From the NCBI GenBank assembly GCA_005502805.1, contig SCMY01000012.1, forward strand, positions 1 to 64,000: a stretch of DNA of 64,000 nucleotides, given 5' to 3'. Source of the DNA: Rhizobiales bacterium 2SD (lineage in GTDB: Bacteria; Pseudomonadota; Alphaproteobacteria; Rhizobiales; Beijerinckiaceae). The translations under genes were made by a program, and so were the position numbers. Within the stretch, counting starts at the first letter, position 1. Every line of letters begins with the position of its first letter. The notes beneath the pieces are model-generated. The model was not told where the DNA came from. It saw only the letters and a program-made list of their open reading frames with translations, and searched no databases. Shown one piece after another: positions 35,676 to 50,673 of this stretch.

Positions 35676-35996
35676 TCAGCCCTGGCGGGCCGGCGTGCGC
35701 ACGACGAGGCCGTCCAGATCGTCGCGGACCCTGATCTGGCAGGACAGGCGCGAATTCGGGCGGACGTCGAAGGCGAAGTCGAGCATGTCCTCTTCCATCG
35801 GCTCGGCATGGCCGGTCTTTTCGGTCCAGGCGTCGTCGACATAGACATGGCAGGTGGCGCAGGCGCAGGCGCCGCCGCACTCTGCCTCGATACCCGGCAC
35901 GCCGTTGCGCACCGCGACTTCCATCACCGTCGAACCCGTCTCGCCCTCGACCGTGCGGCTGGTGCCCTGGGCATCGATGTAAGTGATCTTCGGCAT
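35676..35996 (-). CDS. 2Fe-2S ferredoxin, adrenodoxin type
   Basis: A 106-residue electron carrier. The cluster ligands are C-x5-C-x2-C in [11 protein letters not shown] and a fourth cysteine in RLSCQI, the adrenodoxin pattern. It starts [21 protein letters not shown]. Such proteins pass electrons from an NAD(P)H reductase to P450s or to iron-sulfur and heme pathways. Its partners are not nearby. GGAG lies 6 bp before the ATG; a longer in-frame opening to 36122 has no ribosome site and is rejected. Confidence 0.92.
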
Positions 35997-36195
35997 CGTG
36001 AACTCCGGCCGCCTGACGACGGCTGCGCGGCTGGCGCGATCGGGAGGAACCGGCCGGGCTTCCTTGGCGGCGCCGCAGGCAGGTTCGCGAGGGAACTGCG
36101 CCCGCAGTGACGTCGCGGACAAGTTCGTCTCTAGAGGATTTCGAAAGCGGACGAAACGGCGATATCCGCAGCGCCGCCCCTTTCTTGCTGCGGCG

Positions 36196-36531
36196 TCAGG
36201 CCGCGCAGTCGAGCCGCGAGATCACGGCGCGCGCCTCGGCCGCCGCGAGCGTCAAGGCATCCAGAGCATCCTCGCGCGGCGCGGCGTCAGCCTGGGCAAG
36301 CTGTTGCTCGATCCGATCGGCGGCGTCCGCAACCTGCCAGGCGCCGATCGCGCGGGCGGCCCCTTTGAGGGTGTGGGCGGCGTCGCGGCGTACATTGGCG
36401 TCGCCGCCATGGATGGCGCGCAGATGGCGGGCGCATTGCTGGGCGAACAGCGTCAGCAGCTCTCGCTCAAGCTCGGCATCGCCGCCGGTCTGGCGGGCGA
36501 GGTGCACGAGGTCGATGGCAGTCTGGGGCAT
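36196..36531 (-). CDS. Hpt-domain phosphotransfer protein
   Basis: A 111-residue four-helix Hpt domain. The phospho-accepting histidine is in [15 protein letters not shown]. It would shuttle phosphate between a hybrid histidine kinase and a response regulator. No kinase or regulator gene is next to it. It is divergent from the GPR-like gene with a 264-bp gap, which may be chance or may link cell-pole growth to phosphorelay signalling; the sequence does not decide. Confidence 0.88.
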
Positions 36532-36795: not shown

Positions 36796-39700
36796 ATGAC
36801 CCGGCAGAACAAGCTCCAGGATCCGACCGAAGCGGCAATGTCGGCGATCGAGGAAGCGCTGAGGCTCGATCCGTCCAAGGCCGAGGGGGAGGCTACGGCC
36901 GAGCCGAGGCTGCCCTCGACGGGAGAGAACGAGCTCAAGATCGAGCTGCCGCGCGTCGAAAGCGCTCCGGCCAGCATCGATACCGCGCCCGAGCCTCTTC
37001 CCGCCCCATCCCGTCCCGCCATCGCACCGGATACCAGCCGCGTCGCCAATGACGACCGCCGGGATTCCTCCTCGCTGGTCCAGGCATTCGCGGTCCGCCC
37101 TTCCGGAAAGCCGTATTGGCTCGCCGCTCTGGCCACTCTTGTCTGGGCGGGAGGGGGCGGCTTCACACTGGTCAGCCGCTACGGGTCCTTCACTGATGGC
37201 TTGCCGGCCGGCATGGCCGCCTGGGGGCCCGGTCAATGGGCGTTGCTGGCGCTCGGCGCCGGTACGCCGGTGGTGTTCTTCTTCGTGCTGGCGGCGCTCT
37301 ATCGTCGGACCCAGGAGATGCGGCTGGTCTCGCGCGCGATGACCGAGGTCGCGCTGCGCCTGGCGGAACCGGAAGTCGTCGCTTCGGATTCGGTGCTGTC
37401 GCTCAGCCAGACCATTCGCCGCGAGGTCGCGGCCATGGGCGACGGTATCGAGCGGGCAGTGGCGCGAGCCGGCGAGCTGGAGACAATCGTGCGCGGCGAG
37501 ATCGCGACGCTCGAGCGCGCCTATGCCGACAACGAAATCCGTTTGCGCTCGCTCATCGACGAGCTGGTGACCCAGCGCGAATCCGTCGTCGGCAACGCCG
37601 AGCGCGTGAAATTCGCGATATCAGGCGCGCATGAGAGCATAACCAAAGACCTGGAGACCGCCAGCCGCTCGATCTCCGAAGCGGTGGCAGAAGCCGGTGA
37701 GCGCGTCACCTCGCGCCTGACCGACAAGGGCGATCAGATCACTCTGGCGCTCGGCCATGCCGGCGAACGCATGGTCGACGAGATCAGCGGCCGCGGCAAC
37801 GACCTGGTCGAGCGCCTGCAGTCGACCTCGCACGACGTCAGCGAGCGCATGACGAGCGCGAGCCAGTCGATGACGGCCGTGCTCGACAACCGCGCCCAGG
37901 AGATCGCAGGCTCGATCGAGCGCACCGGCGCCGTTCTCACCGACGGCCTGACAGCCGGCGCCCGCGACGTCACCCGCGCGATCAGCGAGACCGGGGCGCA
38001 GGTCGTCGAGTCGCTGGCGAGCCGCGCCGAGACAGTCAACGAGACGCTGCGCACCACCGGCGACACGCTCGCCCAGGAAATCACCCAGCGCGGCGCCACC
38101 GTCGCCGAGCGCTTCGAGCAGAGCGGGCGCACGCTGGTCGACCTGTTCGATACCCAGAGCAACAGCCTGACCCTGCGCCTGACCGAGACCGGCGAGAACC
38201 TGCGCAGCTCGATCAGCAGCGAAGGCGAGAGCGTGACCACCCGCCTCGCCGAGGTCGGCCGCGGCGTGCATATGCTGCTCGGCAAGCAGAACGAGCTGGT
38301 CGTCAACCGTATCCAGGAGGCCGGCGACACCGTCCACGGCCTGATCGCCAGCCAGGGCTCGACCCTGGTCGAGAAACTCGAAGGCACCGTCCAGACCGTC
38401 GACAGCCTGCTGCGCGAGAAGACCGACTCGATCGTCCTGCGCTTCGATGAAGCCGGCAAGGGCCTGCACAGCCTGATCGGCGAGCGCGGCGAAGAGCTAA
38501 CCGCGCGGATCTCCGCCGTCGGTGCGACAGTGCACAGCCTGTTCTCCGAGGAGGCGAGCAGCCTCGTCACCCGCCTCTCCGACCTCGGCCACGAGGTGCG
38601 CAGCACGATCGGCGAGCAGGGCGACCATCTGGTCGGCCGCCTGTCCGAGACCGGGCAGCGCCTGCAGGAGGCGATCAGCGAGCGCGGCGACGGGCTGGTG
38701 TTGCGCATGGCCGAAATCGGCCAGGGCGTCGAGCACGCGATCGGCGAGCGCGCCGACAGCATCGTCAATCGCGTGGCCGATGCCGGCCGCAGCGTCGAGG
38801 CAATTATCGGCGAGCGCGGCGACGGCCTCGTCTCCCGTCTGTCGGAAACCACGTATCAGATCGAGCAGACCCTGGGCGGCCGCGCCGACGGCATCGTCGC
38901 CCGCATCGCCGACGCCAGCCGCGGCATCGAGAACGTGATCGGCGAACGCGGCGACGGCCTGGTCGCCAAGCTGTCCGAGACCACCGAGGAAATCCACCGG
39001 ACACTCGGTGACCGCGCCGAGGTCATCGTCTCCCGGGTCGCCCATGCCGGCCGCGATGTCGAATCGGCGATCGGCGAGCGCGGCGACGGGCTGATCGCCC
39101 GTCTGTCCGAGGTCGCACGCGAGGTCCATGCCACCATCGGCGAGCGCGGCGACAGCCTCGTCGCTCGCCTGTCGGATGTCGGTACGGAAGTCCACACCGC
39201 CATCGGCGAACGCGGCGACAGCCTGGTGGCGCGCCTGTCGCATGTCGGCAGCGAGGTCCAGGGCGCGATCGGTAGCCAACGCGAAGCGCTCGTGACCCAA
39301 CTCACCGACGCCGGAGCCAGCGTTCGCAACCTGCTCATTGTCGAGGGAGAGGCGCTCAGCGGCCGCGTCATCGCGACCGGCCAGGACATACAGGAACTGC
39401 TCTCCGGCCAGAGCCAGGCGCTGGTCACCCGCGTCGCCGATGTCGGCCGCTCGGTCCATGGCCTGCTGGCGGAGCGCGGCAACGCGCTGATCGACCGGCT
39501 GGCCGAAGCGAGCGGGACCGCGCATCAGCGGCTCGACGAAACCGGGGAGGCGCTCGCTGCCAAGATCCTGGCCGCCAGCGAGACGGCGAAATCCGTCATC
39601 GACAACCAGCACAGCGGCTTCATCGCGCGTCTCGGCCAAGCCGGAGACGAGGTCGGCACCCTGCTCGGCACGCAGCGCGACGCGATCATCGCCGGCCTCA

Positions 39701-42700
39701 CCGCGACGGGCCGCGAGGTCCACGGCCTGATCGGAGAGCAGAGCCAGATGCTGGCCGGCCGTCTCGACGAGGCGACCAAAGCCCTCTCCGACGCCATCAA
39801 TGTCGATGGCCGCGAGATCGCCGACCGCGTCTCGGAAGCTGCGAACGCCTTGCGCGACACCTTCACCACCGAGGCCGAGCGCGCCAGCGGCCTGCTCGCC
39901 GCGACCGGCAAGGACGTGGTCATCGCGCTCACCCAGCAGGGCGGCCGGGTCAACCAGGCGCTGGCCGCCAATGCCGAGTCGCTTCTGCGCTCGGTCGATG
40001 CCCGCTCGCAGGCGCTCAACGAGTCGCTCGCCAGCAAGCACGATGCGCTGAACCGCCTGTTCGACATCCAGGGCCGCGAGATCGAGGCGACGATCGGCGC
40101 CCGCCTCGGCGCCTTCGAGGAGATCATCGTCACCCGCGGCGGCACGCTGGCGGCCAAGATCGGCAACGACGCCCGCTCCTTCACCGATTCGGTGACGCTG
40201 CGCCTCGGCCAGGTCGAGAAGCTGCTCGGCGAGGAAGGGCAGGCTTTGGCCGAACGGATCGGCGAGCGCTCGCAGCACGCCGCCGAGACGATGATGGCGC
40301 GCACGCAGGAAGCGGCCGCCGCCATGGAGACGCAGATCAAGACCTTCGAGGAGCGTTCCAGCGCCAAGAGCGCCGAGATCGCGACCTCGCTCGACGGTCT
40401 CATCGCCCGCATCGACGGCAATCTCGGCGCGCGCGCCAACGCACTCAACGAGGCGCTGGTCGAGCGCACGGTCGACATCGCCCGGGTCATGGCCGAGGGC
40501 GGGCGCGAGGTCACCCGCGCCCTCACCGCCAAGGCCGACGAGATCGGCGAGATCGTCACCACGAAGAGCGAGGCTCTGACGCAGACGCTCGCCGAGAAGG
40601 CCGACAGCATCAATGCGACGCTGGGCGGGCGCGCTTTGCAGATCGCCGACACGCTCGACCAGAGCGTGGCGCGGTTCGAGGAGCGCGTCGTCAACCGGCT
40701 CGACACGGTCTCCGGCACGCTCGACGCGCGCGGCAGCCAGATCGCGCAGACCCTGCAGGGCACTGCAGATTCGATCGCCGGCTCGCTCGGCGACCGCACC
40801 GAGGAACTGCGCGCCCTGTTCGACGGCAAGGGCACCGGCCTGATCACCCTGCTCGACGAGCGCGGCAACCAGATCGTCCAGACGCTGCAAGGCACCGCGG
40901 ATGCGGTCACCGGCTCGCTCAGTGCCCGCACCGACGAGCTCCGTGCCCTGTTCGAGGGCAAGGGCACCGGCCTGATCACCCTCCTCGATCAGCAGGGCAA
41001 CAAGATCGTCCAGACCCTGGACGGCGCTGCGGCCTCGATCGTGGGCTCGTTCAGTGCGCGCAGCGACGAGCTGCGTGCGCTGTTCGACGACAAGGGCACC
41101 GGCCTGGTCACCCTGCTCGACCAGCACGGCAACCAAATCGCGCAGACGCTGCAGGAGAAGGCGGACGGCATCGCGGCCACGCTCTCCGATCGCTCGAACG
41201 AGCTGCGCGCCGTGTTCGACGAGCGCGGCGGCGGCATCCTCAATGCGCTCGGCAATCGCGGCAGCCAGATCGCCCAGATCCTGCAGGAGCGCTCGGACGG
41301 CCTCGCCACCGCCCTCTCCGGCCGTACGGAAGAGCTGCGCGCCTTGTTCGACGAGCGCGGCGGCGACATGCTGAACACGTTCGACCAGCACAGCCGCAAC
41401 CTCACCCGGACCCTGGCGGAGCAGTCGGACGGGATCAGCTCGGCGCTGACCACACGCACCGAGGAACTGCGCGCCCTGTTCGACGAACGCGGCAACGGCG
41501 TGGTCGAGGCGATCGGCCGCAAGGGCATCACGCTCGCCAACCAGTTCGCCAGCCTCGGCGAGGCCCTGGTCAACAATATCGAGACCCGCGGCAACCGCAT
41601 GGTCGCCGGCCTGCACGAGCGCAGCAGCGAGATCAGCCAGGCGCTTGAGCTTGCTTCCGGCGCGTTGCGCGAGACGATCGAGAGCGGCACCAACCACTCG
41701 GTCGAGGCGCTGCTCAAGACCAATGAGCAGCTGCGCAGCGAGCTCGGCAGCATGCTGGGCCGCCTCGGCGAGGCCAACAAGCTGATGCAGCAGATCGTCA
41801 CCGGCGCGAACAAGAACCTCGCGGCGGTCGAAGGCAGCCTGTCTGGCCGTGTCGAGGAGCTGCAGACAGTGCTCTCGACGGTGGTCCAGGAGACCAACCG
41901 CACCTCCGAGCAGGTCGCGAACCAGATCGCGGCGCTGAAGGGCTATTCGGAAGGCACGCTGCGCGACACCGCGGCGCTGATCTCCCGGATCGACGCGCAG
42001 GGCTCGTCGATGACCGAGACCTCGGAAGCCAACGCCGCGGCGCTCAACGCCGTCGCGCAGCGGCTGGAGCAGGTCGAGGCCCGCGTCGGCAATGTCCTCG
42101 CCGACCGCAAGGAGGCGCTGGAGCACCTGCACGGGCTGATCGCCACCCGCACCGACGACATCGAGCAGATCACCCGCTCGTTCTCTTCGCAGCTCGACGA
42201 ATCGCTGAGCAGTGCCGAGACGCGCACCCGCCAGCTGAGCACAGTGCTCAGCGACGCCGCCGAATCGACCAGCAACGCCATCGCCCAGCAGTTCGACTCG
42301 ATCCGCGCCGCCAGCGGCCGCGAGCGCGAAGCGACCGCGCAGGCGTTGCGCGCGGCCTATGAGGAAGTGGTGAACGAGGTCTCCGGCGAGCTCGGCAAGG
42401 TCACGGAACGCTTCCAGAGCGCCGCCGAGGACATGCGCTCCATGTCGGCCGAAATCCATCGCGAGCTCGAGACGACCCGCACCGAGCTGAAGAAGGGCGT
42501 GCTCGAACTGCCGCGCGAGACCCAGGAATCGACCGCGGCCATGCGCCGCGTCGTTGCCGACCAGATCAAGGCGCTCAACGAGCTGACCGAGATCGTCTCG
42601 CGCTCGGGCCGGAGCAGTGACGTGGCGCGTCCGCAAGGCGAGCGGCGAGCCACGGCGAACTACCAGCAACCGGCTCCGGTCGTGACCGCCTCGTCGTCCG

Positions 42701-43314
42701 TCGCGGTGCAGAGCGCGCCGGTGCTGACCGAGCCGCTGCGCGCCTCGATCGACCCGACGCCGGAACCGGCCCGGACCGAGCCGCAGGTGCAGGTCGTGCG
42801 TCCCACCCCTGCCCCCGAGCAGGCCCGCGCCGAGGCTGTTCAGCGCGCCGAGCCGGCCCGCCGCCCGGCGGCCGAGCAGCCTGCTCCGGCCAAGTCCGGC
42901 TGGCTCTCGGACCTGCTCAGCCGCGCCTCGCGCGACGACCGGGCGCCTGAGGCTTCGAAGCCGACGGCGCACAGCATCGAGAAGCTCGATTCGCTCTCGG
43001 TCGACATCGCCCGGATGATCGATCATGACGCGGCCGTCGAGCTCTGGGAGCGCTACAAGCGCGGCGAACGCAGCGTCTTCACGCGTCGCCTCTATACGCT
43101 GCAGGGCCAGCAGACCTTCGACGAGATCCGGCGCAAGTATCGCCGCGACACCGAGTTCAAGGAGACGGTCGACCGCTATATCGAAGAGTTCGAGCGCCTG
43201 CTCGGCGAAGCGGCCAAGGACGACCGCGACTCGATGGTGGCGAAGACCTACCTGACCTCGGAGACCGGCAAGGTCTACACCATGCTGGCCCATGCCAGCG
43301 GACGGTTCGAGTAA
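36796..43314 (+). CDS. Growth Pole Ring (GPR)-like giant apolipoprotein-type protein
   Basis: A 2172-residue protein. Order of parts: an acidic, proline-containing cytoplasmic arm (1-100); two membrane helices (about 105-128 YWLAALATLVWAGGGGF and 145-169 LLALGAGTPVVFFFVLAAL); a very long helical region built of 22-residue amphipathic repeats (about 230-1700); a coiled-coil-rich part (to about 1945); a proline/alanine linker; and a conserved C-terminal domain (about 2061-2172, IARMIDHDAAVELWERYKRG). The size, membrane anchor and apolipoprotein-like repeats match GPR of Agrobacterium (about 2100 residues), which forms a ring at the growing pole and is needed for polar growth. The ATG at 36796 is preferred over a TTG at 36661. 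It is a single gene with its own terminator. Confidence 0.8.
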   Translation: MTRQNKLQDPTEAAMSAIEEALRLDPSKAEGEATAEPRLPSTGENELKIELPRVESAPASIDTAPEPLPAPSRPAIAPDTSRVANDDRRDSSSLVQAFAVRPSGKPYWLAALATLVWAGGGGFTLVSRYGSFTDGLPAGMAAWGPGQWALLALGAGTPVVFFFVLAALYRRTQEMRLVSRAMTEVALRLAEPEVVASDSVLSLSQTIRREVAAMGDGIERAVARAGELETIVRGEIATLERAYADNEIRLRSLIDELVTQRESVVGNAERVKFAISGAHESITKDLETASRSISEAVAEAGERVTSRLTDKGDQITLALGHAGERMVDEISGRGNDLVERLQSTSHDVSERMTSASQSMTAVLDNRAQEIAGSIERTGAVLTDGLTAGARDVTRAISETGAQVVESLASRAETVNETLRTTGDTLAQEITQRGATVAERFEQSGRTLVDLFDTQSNSLTLRLTETGENLRSSISSEGESVTTRLAEVGRGVHMLLGKQNELVVNRIQEAGDTVHGLIASQGSTLVEKLEGTVQTVDSLLREKTDSIVLRFDEAGKGLHSLIGERGEELTARISAVGATVHSLFSEEASSLVTRLSDLGHEVRSTIGEQGDHLVGRLSETGQRLQEAISERGDGLVLRMAEIGQGVEHAIGERADSIVNRVADAGRSVEAIIGERGDGLVSRLSETTYQIEQTLGGRADGIVARIADASRGIENVIGERGDGLVAKLSETTEEIHRTLGDRAEVIVSRVAHAGRDVESAIGERGDGLIARLSEVAREVHATIGERGDSLVARLSDVGTEVHTAIGERGDSLVARLSHVGSEVQGAIGSQREALVTQLTDAGASVRNLLIVEGEALSGRVIATGQDIQELLSGQSQALVTRVADVGRSVHGLLAERGNALIDRLAEASGTAHQRLDETGEALAAKILAASETAKSVIDNQHSGFIARLGQAGDEVGTLLGTQRDAIIAGLTATGREVHGLIGEQSQMLAGRLDEATKALSDAINVDGREIADRVSEAANALRDTFTTEAERASGLLAATGKDVVIALTQQGGRVNQALAANAESLLRSVDARSQALNESLASKHDALNRLFDIQGREIEATIGARLGAFEEIIVTRGGTLAAKIGNDARSFTDSVTLRLGQVEKLLGEEGQALAERIGERSQHAAETMMARTQEAAAAMETQIKTFEERSSAKSAEIATSLDGLIARIDGNLGARANALNEALVERTVDIARVMAEGGREVTRALTAKADEIGEIVTTKSEALTQTLAEKADSINATLGGRALQIADTLDQSVARFEERVVNRLDTVSGTLDARGSQIAQTLQGTADSIAGSLGDRTEELRALFDGKGTGLITLLDERGNQIVQTLQGTADAVTGSLSARTDELRALFEGKGTGLITLLDQQGNKIVQTLDGAAASIVGSFSARSDELRALFDDKGTGLVTLLDQHGNQIAQTLQEKADGIAATLSDRSNELRAVFDERGGGILNALGNRGSQIAQILQERSDGLATALSGRTEELRALFDERGGDMLNTFDQHSRNLTRTLAEQSDGISSALTTRTEELRALFDERGNGVVEAIGRKGITLANQFASLGEALVNNIETRGNRMVAGLHERSSEISQALELASGALRETIESGTNHSVEALLKTNEQLRSELGSMLGRLGEANKLMQQIVTGANKNLAAVEGSLSGRVEELQTVLSTVVQETNRTSEQVANQIAALKGYSEGTLRDTAALISRIDAQGSSMTETSEANAAALNAVAQRLEQVEARVGNVLADRKEALEHLHGLIATRTDDIEQITRSFSSQLDESLSSAETRTRQLSTVLSDAAESTSNAIAQQFDSIRAASGREREATAQALRAAYEEVVNEVSGELGKVTERFQSAAEDMRSMSAEIHRELETTRTELKKGVLELPRETQESTAAMRRVVADQIKALNELTEIVSRSGRSSDVARPQGERRATANYQQPAPVVTASSSVAVQSAPVLTEPLRASIDPTPEPARTEPQVQVVRPTPAPEQARAEAVQRAEPARRPAAEQPAPAKSGWLSDLLSRASRDDRAPEASKPTAHSIEKLDSLSVDIARMIDHDAAVELWERYKRGERSVFTRRLYTLQGQQTFDEIRRKYRRDTEFKETVDRYIEEFERLLGEAAKDDRDSMVAKTYLTSETGKVYTMLAHASGRFE
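38476..39330 (+). repeat. 66-bp coding tandem repeats (22-residue units) in the GPR-like gene
   Basis: The codons for I-G-E-R-G-D recur with exact 66-bp spacing: ATC at 38476, 38608, 38674, 38740, 38806, 38938, 39070, 39136, 39202 and 39268 (every position a multiple of 66 from the first). The unit reads like GERGDGLVSRLSE plus a variable helix half. These are apolipoprotein-type 22-mers and the DNA is similar enough for slippage or unequal exchange. Confidence 0.9.
40732..41392 (+). repeat. 132-bp coding tandem repeats (44-residue units) in the GPR-like gene
   Basis: GGCA(A/G)CCA-type codons for G-N/S-Q-I-x-Q-T/I-L recur at 40732, 40864, 40996, 41128 and 41260, exactly 132 bp apart. Each 44-residue unit ends in a D/E-ELRALF-(D/E)-K/R-G block. 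This is two 22-mers evolving as one double unit. Confidence 0.88.
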
Positions 43315-45334: not shown

Positions 45335-46468
45335 CTAGCGCGATCCGCTGTATTGGGGAAGCGGCGGACGGCCGCCGAAGATGAACTGCTGGGGATTGCG
45401 CTCGACGTTGCGCAGCACACGGTTGATATCCCCAAGCGTGCGCTTGCCGTCGGAAGCGAGCGTCTCGAGGTCGCGCAGACCCGGACCGGTGAAGCGGTTG
45501 ATCCCCGTGGTGATCTCGGCCGTCCGCTTGTCGAGGTTGTCGGCCAGCACCCGGATCGATTTCGCAGCATTGGCGACCTCGGCGAAGGCGCCCTGCCCGT
45601 CCTGGGTATTCAGGAAGGATTGCGCCGCCTTGAGCACGCCCTCGACCTGGTCGGCGGCACGATTGAGCTTTTCCGTGATCGAAGCGACATCGCTGACTGC
45701 CTTCGAGACATCGTTGCTCGACCCGCCCAGGGCCGCGGTGAACTTGTCGACATTGTCGATGATGCCGGTGATCTTGGCGCGGTCGACCGAGCGCACCACC
45801 CCGGTCAGCTCCTCGCTCAGCGTGCCGAGCTTCTGCGAGAGCGGCGCGATCGTATCGGCGATCTGGCCGAAACTCGTCATCAGCTTGTCGATGTTGCCGG
45901 AGTTGCCTCCGAGCGCCTGCGAGAACTTCTCGACATTGCGGACGGTGTTGGTGATCGAGCCGGAATTCTCCTTGATCAGACCGTCGAGGTTGCCGAGCAC
46001 CTCATCCGCCTTCTTGGCGACATTGCGGACGGATTCGATGATGTCCTGCAGCTCGGAACGTTCGGCGATGATGGTCGGCAGCGTTTCGCCGGGCTTCACC
46101 TGCAGCACCGGCGCGTCGGGCTCGCCGCCGATCAACTGCAGTGCGACGACGCCGGCGAGCCCCTGCGCCTCGATGCGGGCACGGGTATCGACGCGCAGCG
46201 GCGTCGTATTGTCGACCTCGATCACGCCGAAGATGCGACGCGGGTCGTCCGGCTGCAGGCCGATCTGCTTGACCTCACCGACGCGCAGCCCGTTGAACAG
46301 CACGCTGGAGCCGCGTCCGAGACCGGTAACGGTCCCGGTGAAGATCACGCGGACATCCTGCTTGCGGCCGCCGCCGCCGCTGCCGAACCAGTAGACGAAT
46401 CCGAACATCGCCGCGATCACGGCGAGAGTGAAGAGGCCTACCAGGGCGTAGTTCGCACGGGATTCCAT
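45335..46468 (-). CDS. MlaD-like MCE-domain protein
   Basis: A 377-residue protein anchored by one N-terminal helix (ANYALVGLFTLAVIAAMFGFVYWF), with one MCE domain (residues about 40-120, VTGLGRGSSVLFNGLRVGEV) and a long helical tail rich in SVRNVAKKADEVL-type repeats. MCE rings carry phospholipids between membranes. The long helical C-terminus is typical of the alphaproteobacterial form, which is larger than E. coli MlaD (183 residues). Confidence 0.9.
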   Translation of the reverse strand: MESRANYALVGLFTLAVIAAMFGFVYWFGSGGGGRKQDVRVIFTGTVTGLGRGSSVLFNGLRVGEVKQIGLQPDDPRRIFGVIEVDNTTPLRVDTRARIEAQGLAGVVALQLIGGEPDAPVLQVKPGETLPTIIAERSELQDIIESVRNVAKKADEVLGNLDGLIKENSGSITNTVRNVEKFSQALGGNSGNIDKLMTSFGQIADTIAPLSQKLGTLSEELTGVVRSVDRAKITGIIDNVDKFTAALGGSSNDVSKAVSDVASITEKLNRAADQVEGVLKAAQSFLNTQDGQGAFAEVANAAKSIRVLADNLDKRTAEITTGINRFTGPGLRDLETLASDGKRTLGDINRVLRNVERNPQQFIFGGRPPLPQYSGSR

Positions 46469-46480
46469 CGCGGGCGTCCG

Positions 46481-47314
46481 TCACGTCCTCGTTTGATTCT
46501 CCGGCAGCCGGGCACGTGCCCGCTCGCCGCCGAAATACGCCTTGAGCCAGGGATGATCGGAAGCCAGCATGGTGGCGAGCGGACCGACCGCGATGACACG
46601 CTTGTCCGCCAAGGCGGCAATCCTGTCGCAAGCTACATACAGACTATCGAGGTCATGGGTTACCATGAACACCGTCAGGCCCAAAGTCTGCTTGAGCGTC
46701 ATGATCAGCTCGTCGAACTCGGCGGCACCGATCGGGTCAAGCCCCGAGGTCGGCTCGTCGAGGAAGACGATCTCGGGATCGAGCGCCAGCGCGCGGGCAA
46801 GCGCCGCGCGCTTGATCATGCCGCCGGAAAGCTCGGAAGGTGCCTTGTCGGCCGCATCCGGTTTCAAGCCCACCATCTCGATCTTGAGCATGGCGAGCTC
46901 TTCGAGCAGGCGCGGCGAGAGGTCGAGATACTCCCGCATCGGCACCTGGATGTTCTGCTTGACGCTCAAGGCGGAGAACAGAGCGCCTTGCTGGAACATC
47001 ACGCCAAAGCGCCGTTCGAGCCGACGCCGGCCGCGCGGATCGAGCTTGTCGACATTCTCGCCGAAGACCTCGATCGTACCGCGCTGCTTGCGGACGAGGC
47101 CGAGAATCGTGCGGGTCAGCACCGATTTGCCCTGACCGGATCCCCCGACGAAGCCGAGAATTTCACCACGCATCACATCGAGATCAAGTCCGTCCATGAT
47201 CACCTTGTCGCCAAAGGCGACCTTGAGGTCACGAACGCGAATCACCGGCTCGGGTTCCCTGTCGCCCGACGCACGAGGTCCGCGCGGACCAGTCTGAGAG
47301 GGTCTGTCGAGCAC
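46481..47314 (-). CDS. MCE-system ABC ATPase (MlaF-like)
   Basis: A 277-residue ATPase with Walker A GGSGQGKSVLTRTI, signature LSGGMIKRAALARAL and Walker B EIVFLDEPTSGLDP. The GGMIKR form of the signature is typical of MlaF. It powers the MlaE-type permease encoded just upstream (12 bp). Confidence 0.93.
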   Translation of the reverse strand: MLDRPSQTGPRGPRASGDREPEPVIRVRDLKVAFGDKVIMDGLDLDVMRGEILGFVGGSGQGKSVLTRTILGLVRKQRGTIEVFGENVDKLDPRGRRRLERRFGVMFQQGALFSALSVKQNIQVPMREYLDLSPRLLEELAMLKIEMVGLKPDAADKAPSELSGGMIKRAALARALALDPEIVFLDEPTSGLDPIGAAEFDELIMTLKQTLGLTVFMVTHDLDSLYVACDRIAALADKRVIAVGPLATMLASDHPWLKAYFGGERARARLPENQTRT

Positions 47315-47326
47315 AGAAGTCCCCTC

Positions 47327-48472
47327 TCACATCCGGATCGAGGCAAAGAACATAGCGAACAGCCCGTCGACCACGATCACCATGAAGATCGCCTTCACCA
47401 CCGACGCCGTCACCTGATGGCCGAGCGATTCGGCCGAGCCCTTGACCGCCAGCCCCTCGATCGAGGCGATCAGGCCGATGACGAACGCCATGAACGGGGC
47501 CTTGATGAGGCCGACGGCGAAATGCTGCCAGGTGATCACCGATTTCAGGCGGTCGAGATAGGTATCGAGGCCGATGCCACCATAAAGCCAGCTCACGAGG
47601 CCGGCGCCGACGAGGCCCGACATGGCCGAAATGAAGGTCAGGATCGGCAAGGCAATGATCAACGCCAGGATGCGCGGCACCACCAGCACCTCGATCGGAT
47701 CGAGCCCCATCACCCGCAGCGCATCGATCTCCTCGCGCATTTTCATCGACCCGATCTCTGCCGTGAAGGCGGAGCCCGAGCGGCCCGCCACCATGATCGA
47801 AGTCAGCAGGACGGAGAGTTCGCGCAGCACGAGAATGCCGGTCAGATTGACGACAAAGGCGGTCGCGCCGAAGCGCTGGAGCTGGAAGATGCCTTGCTGC
47901 GCGACGATGCAACCAACGAGGAACGAGATCAGGATGATGATCGGCGCGCCGTTGAACGCGATCAGCTCGATCTGATTGACCAATGAGGGTCCGCGGAAGC
48001 GCCGCGGTCCGAAAAGGGCGCCGACACAGCCCGCCATCACCTCGCCGAGGAAGATCGCGCCGCCCGCGAGGTCGCGGCCGAAGCGGGTGACGCCCTGACC
48101 GATGTCGACGAGGACCGTAACCAGCCCGATCGGGCGCACCGGCGGCCGATAGTCGGTGACATTGCGCTCGACCTCGCGCAACAGCACCGCGTGCTCCGGC
48201 TGGCGGCTCACCAGCTCGATGGACGCGCCTTTCGACTCGCCCGCCTGCTTCACCTGGTCGAGCAGATAGGCGCCCAGCGTGTCGAGGCGCTCGATCGCCG
48301 ACAGGTCGAGCCGCGCCTGTCGCACGCTGGCGATACGCTCCGTAAGCTCGCTCGCCAACGCTTCGAGACGCGGCGCCCGCCCGACGCTCCAGCGCCCGGC
48401 AAGCGACACGACGAGGACACCTCCATCGTCGCGATAGACCGCCCGCGGCTCAACGTCGTCGACGACAGCCAT
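47327..48472 (-). CDS. MlaE-type permease with N-terminal STAS domain
   Basis: A 381-residue fusion. Residues 1-110 form a STAS domain (LVVSLAGRWSVGRAPRLEAL; LDLSAIERLDTLGAYLLDQV) as in MlaB. From about residue 130 the protein is a complete MlaE permease with the family block FNGAPIIILISFLVGCIVAQQG, GRSGSAFTAEIGSMKMREEIDALRVMG and five helices. Free-standing MlaB is thus not needed. The ATG at 48472 is chosen; the frame runs open to 50167, but that stretch is antisense to other genes. GAGGAG lies upstream of the ATG. Confidence 0.92.
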   Translation of the reverse strand: MAVVDDVEPRAVYRDDGGVLVVSLAGRWSVGRAPRLEALASELTERIASVRQARLDLSAIERLDTLGAYLLDQVKQAGESKGASIELVSRQPEHAVLLREVERNVTDYRPPVRPIGLVTVLVDIGQGVTRFGRDLAGGAIFLGEVMAGCVGALFGPRRFRGPSLVNQIELIAFNGAPIIILISFLVGCIVAQQGIFQLQRFGATAFVVNLTGILVLRELSVLLTSIMVAGRSGSAFTAEIGSMKMREEIDALRVMGLDPIEVLVVPRILALIIALPILTFISAMSGLVGAGLVSWLYGGIGLDTYLDRLKSVITWQHFAVGLIKAPFMAFVIGLIASIEGLAVKGSAESLGHQVTASVVKAIFMVIVVDGLFAMFFASIRM

Positions 48473-48495
48473 GACGGTTCGCCTACTCCTCACGC

Positions 48496-49683
48496 TCAGA
48501 TTCGGCCCCCACGACCTGTATTGCCGCGCGCCTTGAGGATGGCAAGGGCCGCCAGCACCAACCCGAGCAGCGCGACCGGCACCATGGCGAGGAATACGCC
48601 AGGGCCGAACTGTCGATAGAGGTAGCCGGAGAGAACCGTGGTCACTCCCATGGCGAGCGCACCGGCGGCGACGAGGCGACCCTGCGCCGCCGCGCGGCGT
48701 GCCTCCGGCGCAAGCGCAGACAGCGCGGCCAATGAACCGAGATGCGCGCAGCCGAAGGTCGCGCCATGCAGAAGCTGCAACAGGAATGTCAGAGCCAGGC
48801 CAGGGTCCGCGCTCATCATGCCGAAGCGCAGCGCCGCCGCGACCGCTGCAAGCGCGATCCAGCGCAAGCCCGCAAGGCCTCGCGCCGCGATGCTGCCGGC
48901 TACCAGGAAGACGGCGATCTCGGCAAGAACCGCAACGGCCCAGAGCCAACCGATCACCTCGCCGCTGAAGCCGAGGCTGCGCCAGTGCAACGAGCCGAAG
49001 GCATAGAGCGCCGCATGCGTGGCGTTGACACACGCCGCGGCCCCGACCGCCAGCCAGAATGGCAATCTGAAACGGGCCGAAGGCGCGCTCACGCGAACGG
49101 AAGATGAAATCCCACCGGGCGGAGACGGGGCTTGCAAAGCCGCGAGTGCCGCGAGCGAACTGCTGCCGGCCAAGACGAACGGGATCAGCCAGGCGCCATG
49201 GAGCGCGATCAGATAGCCGCCGACGAGGTTCGAGAGCACGAAGGTCACCGACCCCCAGAGCCTGACGCGGCCATAGTCTCTCAGCGCCCCGGCCTTGACC
49301 TGTTCGGTGGTCAGAACATCGGCGAGGGGCACGACACCCGAAAGCGCGATCGCGCTGAGAGCGGTCAGGATGGCGATCGGAATGAGCTGCGCCTGCAGCG
49401 CCAGCAGGAAATAGACGATCGCCGCCAGCGCGTTCAGCAGCGCCAGCAGAAGATTGGGCCTCAGACGATCGCCCAGACCCGTCACCGACGATGCCACGAA
49501 GACACGTACCAGGATCGGAATCGCGAGCACGTAACCGATATCGACATCGCTCAACCCCTTGGAGGCGAGCCAGACCGGGAAAAACGGCAGATAGAAGCCG
49601 ACACCAAGAAAGTTCAACGCGTGCATCAACGAGAGGCGCGCGGCGAGCAGGCGCGAAGGTCCGGTCCGAAGAGGCGGTGACAT
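48496..49683 (-). CDS. MFS transporter, HcaT-like (MFS_1_like)
   Basis: A 395-residue transporter with about twelve helices. The opening LSLMHALNFLGVGFYLPFFPVWLASKGLSDVDIGYVL and VRLWGSVTFVLSNLVGGYLI match the phenylpropionate-permease-like group. The ligand is unknown. It precedes the Mla operon by 23 bp on the same strand and might share its transcript. Confidence 0.82.
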   Translation of the reverse strand: MSPPLRTGPSRLLAARLSLMHALNFLGVGFYLPFFPVWLASKGLSDVDIGYVLAIPILVRVFVASSVTGLGDRLRPNLLLALLNALAAIVYFLLALQAQLIPIAILTALSAIALSGVVPLADVLTTEQVKAGALRDYGRVRLWGSVTFVLSNLVGGYLIALHGAWLIPFVLAGSSSLAALAALQAPSPPGGISSSVRVSAPSARFRLPFWLAVGAAACVNATHAALYAFGSLHWRSLGFSGEVIGWLWAVAVLAEIAVFLVAGSIAARGLAGLRWIALAAVAAALRFGMMSADPGLALTFLLQLLHGATFGCAHLGSLAALSALAPEARRAAAQGRLVAAGALAMGVTTVLSGYLYRQFGPGVFLAMVPVALLGLVLAALAILKARGNTGRGGRI

Positions 49684-49785
49684 GCCGGTGGCAGCGATTT
49701 CTTAAAGAATCAGAGGCAATTTTGCCGATGGGCATCTTCGGCCGGCGACATGCGATTCGGCCAGCCCATGGAGAGCAGTCTGGCC

Positions 49786-50673
49786 ATGAGCGACGCGCGT
49801 TCGCCATCTCCGCTGAGCGCGGCCGACTATGACGCGATCGCCGCTGCCGTGATGGAAACCTCCCGCGGCCGCTGGTTCCTTGCCGAATATGCCCGCCGCA
49901 ACCGGCAGTCCGATACCGAAATGGTCCTCTCGGCGATTGCACGCCTCGAGCGGCTCTGCACCGTTCCGGCTGCGGTTGACTCGAATGCGGGCCTCTCGGA
50001 CACAGCCCGCACCATCGCCGAGCTCCGTGACGACCTCGATCGCGCCGGGGTGGGCGGTTCATCCGCCCGCCTGTCCTCCCGCGTCCAGGAGACCGCGGCC
50101 AACATACTCGATGCGGCAGAAGCGATTCAGGAGATCGCCTGGACACTGCGTGAAGGCGGCGCGGCACCTGAGCTCTGCGATCGTCTGGATCGGCGCGCGA
50201 CCGAAATCTACGGCGCGACCACGGTCGTCGAAGCGGCAGCCGACCAGATCGGAAAGGTCGCCGACACCGTCGCCATGCTCGATACGAGCCTGCGCTCCGC
50301 AGCCGATGAAGTTGTAGCCGTTCTGCAGGATGAGCCGCCTCTCACTCCTGTCGCTGCGCCTGAACAGCTCAGGTCGCCGCCCGCGAAGTTCGTCACCGAT
50401 CCGGACGACATCGACGTGATCGAGGCCGACACACGCCAGCGCGCGCCTCTGAACGAAGCCGGATTGCGTCAGCAGGTACAGCCCTATCGCCGGCGCAGCA
50501 GCATTCAGGTGGCCGAAGACGATATCGCCTTCGCGGATATCGGCGCGCCGGCCGAAGCGATCATGGTCCCGACATTCGCCAGTTCGGCCACGGTCGAGCT
50601 CAGCTATTCCGAGGCCGACCTGCGGGCGATCGCTTCGCTGCCGGTCGAGGACCGGCTGCATTTCTTCGGCTGA
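49786..50673 (+). CDS. Conserved alphaproteobacterial protein of unknown function
   Basis: A 295-residue soluble, mostly helical protein. The N-terminal YDAIAAAVMETSRGRWFLAEYARRNRQSDT recurs in my memory of rhizobial proteins but has no function I can name. The middle is a long helical stretch (IAELRDDLD to SLRSAADEV) and the C-terminus is acidic with a conserved-looking LPVEDRLHFFG end. Starts at 49750 and 49768 are also in frame; 49786 is chosen because GGAGAG lies upstream. It is divergent from the MFS gene. Confidence 0.6.
   Translation: MSDARSPSPLSAADYDAIAAAVMETSRGRWFLAEYARRNRQSDTEMVLSAIARLERLCTVPAAVDSNAGLSDTARTIAELRDDLDRAGVGGSSARLSSRVQETAANILDAAEAIQEIAWTLREGGAAPELCDRLDRRATEIYGATTVVEAAADQIGKVADTVAMLDTSLRSAADEVVAVLQDEPPLTPVAAPEQLRSPPAKFVTDPDDIDVIEADTRQRAPLNEAGLRQQVQPYRRRSSIQVAEDDIAFADIGAPAEAIMVPTFASSATVELSYSEADLRAIASLPVEDRLHFFG

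Follow-up and report, generated by a model that had tools for sequence, protein, structure and literature searches.

We found that a giant gene in the window (the whole 64,000-nucleotide stretch of DNA analyzed here) probably encodes a growth-pole scaffold of the GPR/RgsE family, membrane-anchored and built around a single in-register hendecad rod of ~1460 residues. The sequence itself shows orthology, a hydrophobic hairpin, an unbroken 11-residue register, conservation of the C-terminal domain, and, within the genus, rods that change length by 11 or 22 residues at a time. Membership in GPR/RgsE, a known family, is confirmed; what we consider new is the unbroken register, the quantized length, a shift of helical period at the order boundary, and an Hpt gene as neighbor. 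Features are listed in Table 1.

Table 1. Features of the scaffold gene and its upstream neighbors, in window coordinates
Feature	Position	Strand	Description
GPR/RgsE ortholog gene	36796..43314	+	2172 aa; ORF call and sequence orthology
N-terminal membrane hairpin (predicted)	37120..37299	+	Two hydrophobic segments, beginning near residues 109 and 150; Kyte-Doolittle windows
Rod, residues 221-1683	37456..41844	+	Unbroken 11/3 (hendecad) register, without proline
Block 1	38476..39333	+	Thirteen 66-bp (22-residue) units, most with an IGERGD-type motif; unit gain/loss between species
Block 2	40732..41391	+	Five 132-bp (44-residue) units; unit gain/loss between species
Proline-rich linker	42600..42957	+	Limits approximate, by eye, from translation and RgsE alignment
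Conserved C-terminal domain	42958..43311	+	Predicted all-helical; no Pfam family above cut-off
Stand-alone Hpt phosphotransfer protein	36196..36531	-	111 aa, HTLKG motif; divergent, upstream; PF01627
2Fe-2S ferredoxin (Fer2)	35679..36122	-	Neighbor conserved mainly within the order

The first-pass annotation described a giant protein of 2172 residues with exact 66/132-bp coding periodicity, and this is what we see: translation begins at an ATG at 36796, the stop codon ends at 43314, and the protein has a strict 22-residue (66-bp) register with a 44-residue (132-bp) sub-block. A TTG-started frame extends 5' as far as 36661, but we kept the ATG because the N terminus so read looks like that of Sinorhizobium meliloti RgsE, a likeness judged by eye since the BLAST alignment begins at residue 70. 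The proposed membrane anchor was likewise found, as two hydrophobic N-terminal segments in Kyte-Doolittle windows (positions 171 and 212 of the stop-to-stop frame, which begins 62 codons 5' of the ATG). We rejected as a gene the 1598-aa antisense ORF (38497-43293, minus strand): 37 of 200 codon-dealt shuffles gave one equally long, and its presence inside the gene is explained by codon composition (GC3 0.90). Also rejected was a ZorA2 NCBIfam match of the giant protein (28.7 bits; cut-off, 700).

The comparator was a 2089-aa S. meliloti protein (CP090106.1), whose length is exactly that published for RgsE. BLAST aligned it with the N-terminal part of the window protein at 42% identity (256 columns; E = 4e-60) and with the C-terminal part at 45% identity (316 columns; E = 2e-85). 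For RgsE, the literature gives 42% identity with Agrobacterium GPR (PMC7327166). Kinship with GPR had been proposed at first pass and made to depend on similarity in both terminal domains; such similarity is present, at the level of sequence and with GPR's published homolog as the comparison. By these alignments, the window protein is an ortholog of S. meliloti RgsE. The protein also has the size of the family (about 2100 residues) together with PF01442 matches, helix is predicted for one 331-residue fragment, and its C-terminal match is single in the window genome, as for a single-copy gene. The S. meliloti homolog (L070:9076-15345) is publicly annotated "kinesin," on a 3.7-Mb replicon labeled pSymB.

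The rod is defined by helical phase. An 11/3 helix keeps constant phase over residues 221 to 1683, a run of 1463 residues, whereas 100 shuffles gave none longer than 154; the power at 11/3 residues per turn was 37, versus ≤1.4 in 1000 shuffles. Self-identity over residues 181 to 1640 was highest at lags of 44, 88, 176, 132, 66, and 22 (0.22 to 0.29), against a mean of 0.083 (SD, 0.035) over lags 1 to 399. The repeat register is thus not due to chance, and it spans almost the whole rod, well beyond the two blocks to which it had at first been assigned. Strong hydrophobic residues (ILMVF) recur with a period of 3.665 residues per turn in a spectral test. Within the 22-residue unit, they fill 250 of 266 cells at positions 1, 8, 12, and 19, while positions 5 and 16 hold G, A, or S in 102 of their 133 cells. 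Because position 9 is often hydrophobic (0.44 over residues 191 to 1290; 0.87 in block 1) and position 22 is so in part (0.34 over residues 191 to 1290), the hydrophobic stripe is not purely one of four positions.

Taking a as positions 5/16, d as 8/19, and h as 12/1 gives the 3-4-4 a-d-h pattern of a hendecad with one small core position; that is, both an 11-residue periodicity with a 3-4-4 core and a small residue at one core position were found. The commonest small core residue in the rod is Gly, not Ala; such a preference is unusual for a long stable helix. Dimeric hendecads are described as needing small core residues (PMC9858780). An AlphaFold model of residues 540 to 870 from the single sequence was helical at 324 of 331 residues (mean pLDDT, 79; pTM, 0.41). 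This model of the block 1 fragment was broken at fragment residues 165 to 169, possibly an instance of the spurious bending named in the abstract of PMC11676326. A literature search found no paper combining "hendecad" with "apolipoprotein"; the GPR/RgsE family may already be included in the hendecad survey of Martinez-Goikoetxea and Lupas. The words "hendecad" and "heptad" are not used in the GPR paper (PMC8262873).

The GPR literature proposes instead a true apolipoprotein-like rod, an amphipathic helix that lies on the membrane and binds lipid, its 22-residue repeat being the apolipoprotein repeat. The whole protein scores 274.7 bits against PF01442 (Apolipoprotein; cut-off, 90) in ten stretches, and two ApoA-IV entries, 3s84 and 9hx4, are the sole solved structures matched by phmmer at E ≤0.001 (1.4e-7 and 1.7e-7), so one can see how the published label arose; in Zupan 2021, two regions of GPR are modeled on ApoA-IV (PMC8262873). 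However, sub-cut-off PF01442 matches also occurred in 7 of 14 control genomes, in a search where the window's own stretches, scored singly, likewise fell below cut-off (best, 56.4 bits), and the profile therefore answers partly to generic periodicity. ApoA-I-type 22-mers are punctuated by proline, whereas these 1463 residues contain none, and their strong hydrophobics, instead of covering a broad face, are largely confined to 4 of the 22 positions (with 9 and 22 contributing in part); the apolipoprotein hallmark of 22-mers punctuated by proline and broadly nonpolar on one side is thus absent from this rod. Given these sequence features, we regard a lipid-binding rod as rather unlikely. For the apolipoprotein-like repeats claimed at first pass, the profile score agrees with the name, but the narrow stripe and the absence of proline do not agree with the name, and the label may largely reflect the 11/22 periodicity. 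The lipid idea needs to be retested if the hendecad coil proves to be locked in register. In the genome of the window, a second, weak PF01442 match (34 bits) lies in a 751-residue frame (G000:C23:60019-60594, L066).

The DNA repeats permit another explanation, namely that the 66/132-bp periodicity records recent tandem duplication and concerted evolution, with length free of structural constraint. The repeats themselves are real. Thirteen in-register positions follow each other at exactly 66 bp from 38476 to 39268, as had been claimed, but the codon there is not invariant: 10 of 13 are ATC, the others being TTC (38542), CTG (38872), and CTC (39004). The second block, said to step by exactly 132 bp from 40732, does so for five units (to 41391) that open with G(S/N)(Q/K)I.Q; a sixth is more diverged. 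TRF independently detects both arrays, with periods of 66 and 132 bp and 74 to 81% matches.

Codon agreement at shared residues bears on the age of the units, because fresh copies would exceed the agreement predicted from codon usage. Over the whole rod there is a small excess at lags of 22 and 44 residues (0.67 versus 0.59 expected) and none at the non-unit lags 33 and 55. Block 1 lies near expectation at lags 22 (0.69 versus 0.61) and 44 (0.65 versus 0.60), with a larger excess at lag 110 (0.75 versus 0.60); in block 2, the values are 0.74 versus 0.61 at lag 44 and 0.76 versus 0.62 at lag 88, and units 1 to 3 are 80 to 83% identical in DNA. These excesses argue for a faint shared DNA ancestry of all units that is clear in block 2. 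The duplication behind the rod units is thus old and its trace mostly worn away, with block 2 the youngest part, and neither block looks freshly copied. In the near clade (8 relatives, 91 to 94% identical), the only rod differences from the window protein are whole units in blocks 1 and 2, a pattern that speaks for duplication at these sites, but as unit gain and loss rather than gene-wide homogenization. Of the first-pass claim of recent duplication or concerted evolution, then, duplication survives in an older form. Because the register continues where neighboring units share only 18 to 20% of residues, and because odd multiples of 11 occur among the length steps between species (see below), we think it improbable that recent duplication accounts for the periodicity; a helix register held along the whole rod accounts better for the 66-bp step.

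Rod lengths among relatives follow this register. We fetched 40 of 60 genus relatives, and 40 of 41 proteins, including that of the window, could be measured between two anchors; they span 1005 to 1731 residues. Lengths were congruent with the window modulo 11 in 37 of the 40, and among 37 rods of differing length, the difference was a multiple of 11 in 34 and of 22 in 25, counts that come from related species and are not independent trials. When we compared 19 disjoint nearest pairs, leaving out two loci (L080, with a broken frame, and L101, at a contig end), 36 rod gaps comprised 24 multiples of 22, 10 other multiples of 11, and 2 others. Length variation predicted at first pass between strains was therefore seen between species, in steps of 11 or 22 with 3 exceptions. 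Self-similarity at offset 11 is weaker than at 22 (amino acid identity, 0.16 versus 0.22), yet 10 of 36 gaps are odd multiples of 11, an observation easier to reconcile with selection for the helix register than with slippage of repeats by itself. In the wider order, the preference for multiples of 11 fades to 10 of 42, compared with about 4 expected. In the congener with the broken frame, a two-contig assembly, the break falls in the C-terminal linker and leaves open frames of 2108 and 131 residues; it may be a sequencing error or a real truncation.

The helical period itself changes at the order boundary. An 11/3 run was longer than a 25/7 run in 38 of 38 genus loci and 41 of 42 order loci, compared with 1 of 41 class loci outside the order. 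The spectral peak lay at 3.665 residues per turn for order loci (42 measured; 35 in 3.65 to 3.68), whereas class loci outside the order had a median of 3.585 (31 of 41 measured, none in 3.65 to 3.68) and often a 25-residue period (lags 25, 50, and 75) instead of 22. In a set of 80 loci from a contig profile search, which is biased towards Parvibaculum-like sequences and repeats some genomes of the main sample, 25/7 was longer in 47 of 48 proteins of <1000 residues and 11/3 in 22 of 23 of >1300 residues.

Alternatively, the family may be an old alphaproteobacterial coiled-coil scaffold in which the giant rod arose by drift in length, without any role as a ruler. Frames were short (377 to 1391 residues) in 35 of the 40 class loci fetched from outside the order, which were hand-chosen, mostly for high scores and long contigs, from 92 genomes with a match to the C-terminal domain; these loci nevertheless keep that domain and N-terminal hydrophobic segments (at least one in 40 of 40, two in 33 of 40). 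The wide range of rod lengths within one genus points the same way. Against drift, the register persists as sequences diverge, and the switch of helical period falls at the order boundary, but both observations fit drift in length too. We consider length drift a serious possibility, though one we would not favor over a rod constrained by its register.

The last 115 residues were matched in 61 of 61 genus genomes and in 115 of 121 order genomes (3 of the 6 without a match being all sampled members of one family), and a profile search matched the C-terminal domain in 92 of 240 class genomes. Three class-level genomes (G201, G278, and G409) have two matches each. From 60 sequences, the 118-residue domain was predicted to form seven helices. 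The five models ranged in pLDDT from 58 to 79; the top one scored 78.7 (pTM, 0.74), and the remaining ones scored 58 to 73. Its fold had no confident match: the best Foldseek hit had an E of 0.42, the best VIA Z score was 5.9 with many tied unrelated rows, and the best PDB profile hit had an E of 0.082; no match was accepted. In Pfam, nothing exceeded the cut-off for the window copy (CdiI_2, 15.2 bits versus 26.7), and DUF7403 matched weakly in 12 of 60 members (best E, 0.001). Published GPR deletions are described as showing that the C terminus is needed for function and not for foci, a 221-residue C-terminal deletion, which was diffuse, being an unexplained exception (PMC8262873).

Upstream of the scaffold gene, the divergent Hpt protein scores 44.2 bits against PF01627 (cut-off, 24.6), and the window copy reads HTLKG; of 151 aligned Hpt frames (one frame per locus), 147 retain the phospho-accepting His. 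The same divergent arrangement is annotated in S. meliloti and Sphingomonas parapaucimobilis, and among 40 fetched loci at each level, we found it in 38 for the genus, 27 for the order, and 11 for the class, as well as in 61 of the 64 loci (of 80) in the Parvibaculum-biased contig set that had >1 kb upstream. Counted by sampled family, Hpt adjoins the gene in 22 of 31 from the order and 8 of 33 from the class, a tally in which the named Rhizobiaceae and Sphingomonadaceae are counted separately and may coincide with unnamed families. This tally is all that we used from a single-linkage clustering of flanking frames, which we rejected otherwise because unrelated frames were merged in its largest clusters.

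The neighboring ferredoxin gene serves as a control. Among 40 order loci, 26 had both Hpt and ferredoxin, 3 had Hpt only, and 11 had ferredoxin only; because the control is more conserved there than Hpt, linkage of Hpt inside the order may be plain gene-order conservation. Among 40 class loci, 2 had both, 10 had Hpt only, and 28 had neither, and the Hpt-scaffold pair stands out beyond the order, though in a minority of families. In the Sphingomonas Hpt neighbor (L072:7619-7912), the phospho-accepting His seems to have been lost, so that the two genes may have stayed together there beyond the end of phosphotransfer. Our literature search found no paper connecting an Hpt gene with GPR/RgsE; in PMC9022086, a hybrid kinase controlling cell shape is described as having no Hpt gene in its vicinity. 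The conserved Hpt neighbor offers a concrete signaling candidate. Downstream of the scaffold gene, at 45338-50167 on the minus strand, lies an MCE/Mla-type lipid transport set (an MlaD-like protein, an ABC ATPase, and an MlaE permease with a STAS domain).

For the scaffold itself, we envisage that the rod would be a hendecad coiled coil pairing in register, so that mainly insertions and deletions of whole 11- or 22-residue units would survive; blocks 1 and 2, where neighboring units are still similar, would be the easiest sites of unit gain and loss. Rods would form the ring at the growth pole, and the C-terminal domain would recruit or position the growth machinery. A weaker suggestion is that the divergent Hpt gene may link this scaffold with a phosphorelay. 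Few organizers are known for the building and sizing of the growth zone in a polar-growing bacterium, and GPR/RgsE is among them. If the rod is register-locked, species differing by known numbers of 22-residue units form a natural length series for ring size, and the published deletion phenotypes gain a simple reading.

Those phenotypes come from Agrobacterium GPR, which is described as forming six foci in a 200-nm ring (Zupan 2021, PMC8262873). Deleting ~20 residues of one predicted coiled coil caused the strongest dominant damage beside the wild type, to the authors' surprise, while the deleted protein retained partial function alone; a second coiled-coil deletion (1100-1120) was likewise dominant, yet on its own it complemented well (PMC8262873). 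We computed that removing 20 or 21 residues rotates an 11/3 helix out of phase by 164 or 262 degrees, respectively, whereas removing 22 keeps phase. The dominant damage would then fit a register mismatch in mixed multimers, which homomultimers partly escape. The size of the deletion is variously given as 20, 21, and, by its coordinates 413-434, possibly 22 residues (PMC8262873); if it is 22, the cut is in register and speaks against such a mismatch. Applying this reading to Agrobacterium GPR would in any case be an extrapolation, as RgsE is less regular (869 residues unbroken).

A bolder idea, which we hold to be unlikely as a whole, is that the length of the in-register rod sets the size of the growth-pole ring. 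It would take the dominant 20/21-residue deletion as register mismatch, polar growth as resting on >1000-residue hendecad rods in two phyla (GPR, and Scy in Streptomyces), the shift from ~3.58 to 3.667 residues per turn as the mark of the rod's origin at the base of the order, and Hpt as a phosphorelay link. Ring diameter should then step with rod length between species. At a helix rise of 0.15 nm per residue, the fully extended rod (1463 residues) would be ~219 nm long; six such rods, doubly overlapped, come to ~658 nm, against the 628-nm circumference of a 200-nm ring, which we regard as coincidence, not evidence.

Among known systems, the window protein is closest to S. meliloti RgsE (SMc00190) and A. 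tumefaciens GPR (Atu1348), in size (2172 versus 2089 and 2115 aa), in its hydrophobic N-terminal segments, and in its PF01442-like rod; the divergent Hpt and 2Fe-2S ferredoxin neighbors are also present in S. meliloti. It differs from RgsE in its register, which in RgsE is unbroken for 869 residues and drifts beyond, compared with 1463 here. With apolipoproteins A1/A4/E (PF01442), it shares the 22-residue amphipathic periodicity and the profile score, but it has a narrow stripe and a proline-free rod, is membrane-anchored, and is bacterial. Caulobacter TipN (882 aa) has been called similar to GPR (PMC8546619) and analogous to it (PMC13170164), and the likeness is taken from these two descriptions rather than from a sequence comparison; our contig profile search with the C-terminal alignment gave, among 80 kept of 290 relatives, none titled Caulobacter or Agrobacterium. 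A search of a plasmid collection with the Sphingomonas protein gave six records. The actinobacterial Scy/FilP proteins resemble the window protein in being cytoskeletal, with long hendecad rods and small core residues; Scy is described as >1000 residues that are almost entirely hendecads (PMC9858780). They have a DivIVA-like N-terminal motif, whereas the window protein has a membrane hairpin and another C-terminal domain; the likeness would be one of mechanism, and we claim no kinship.
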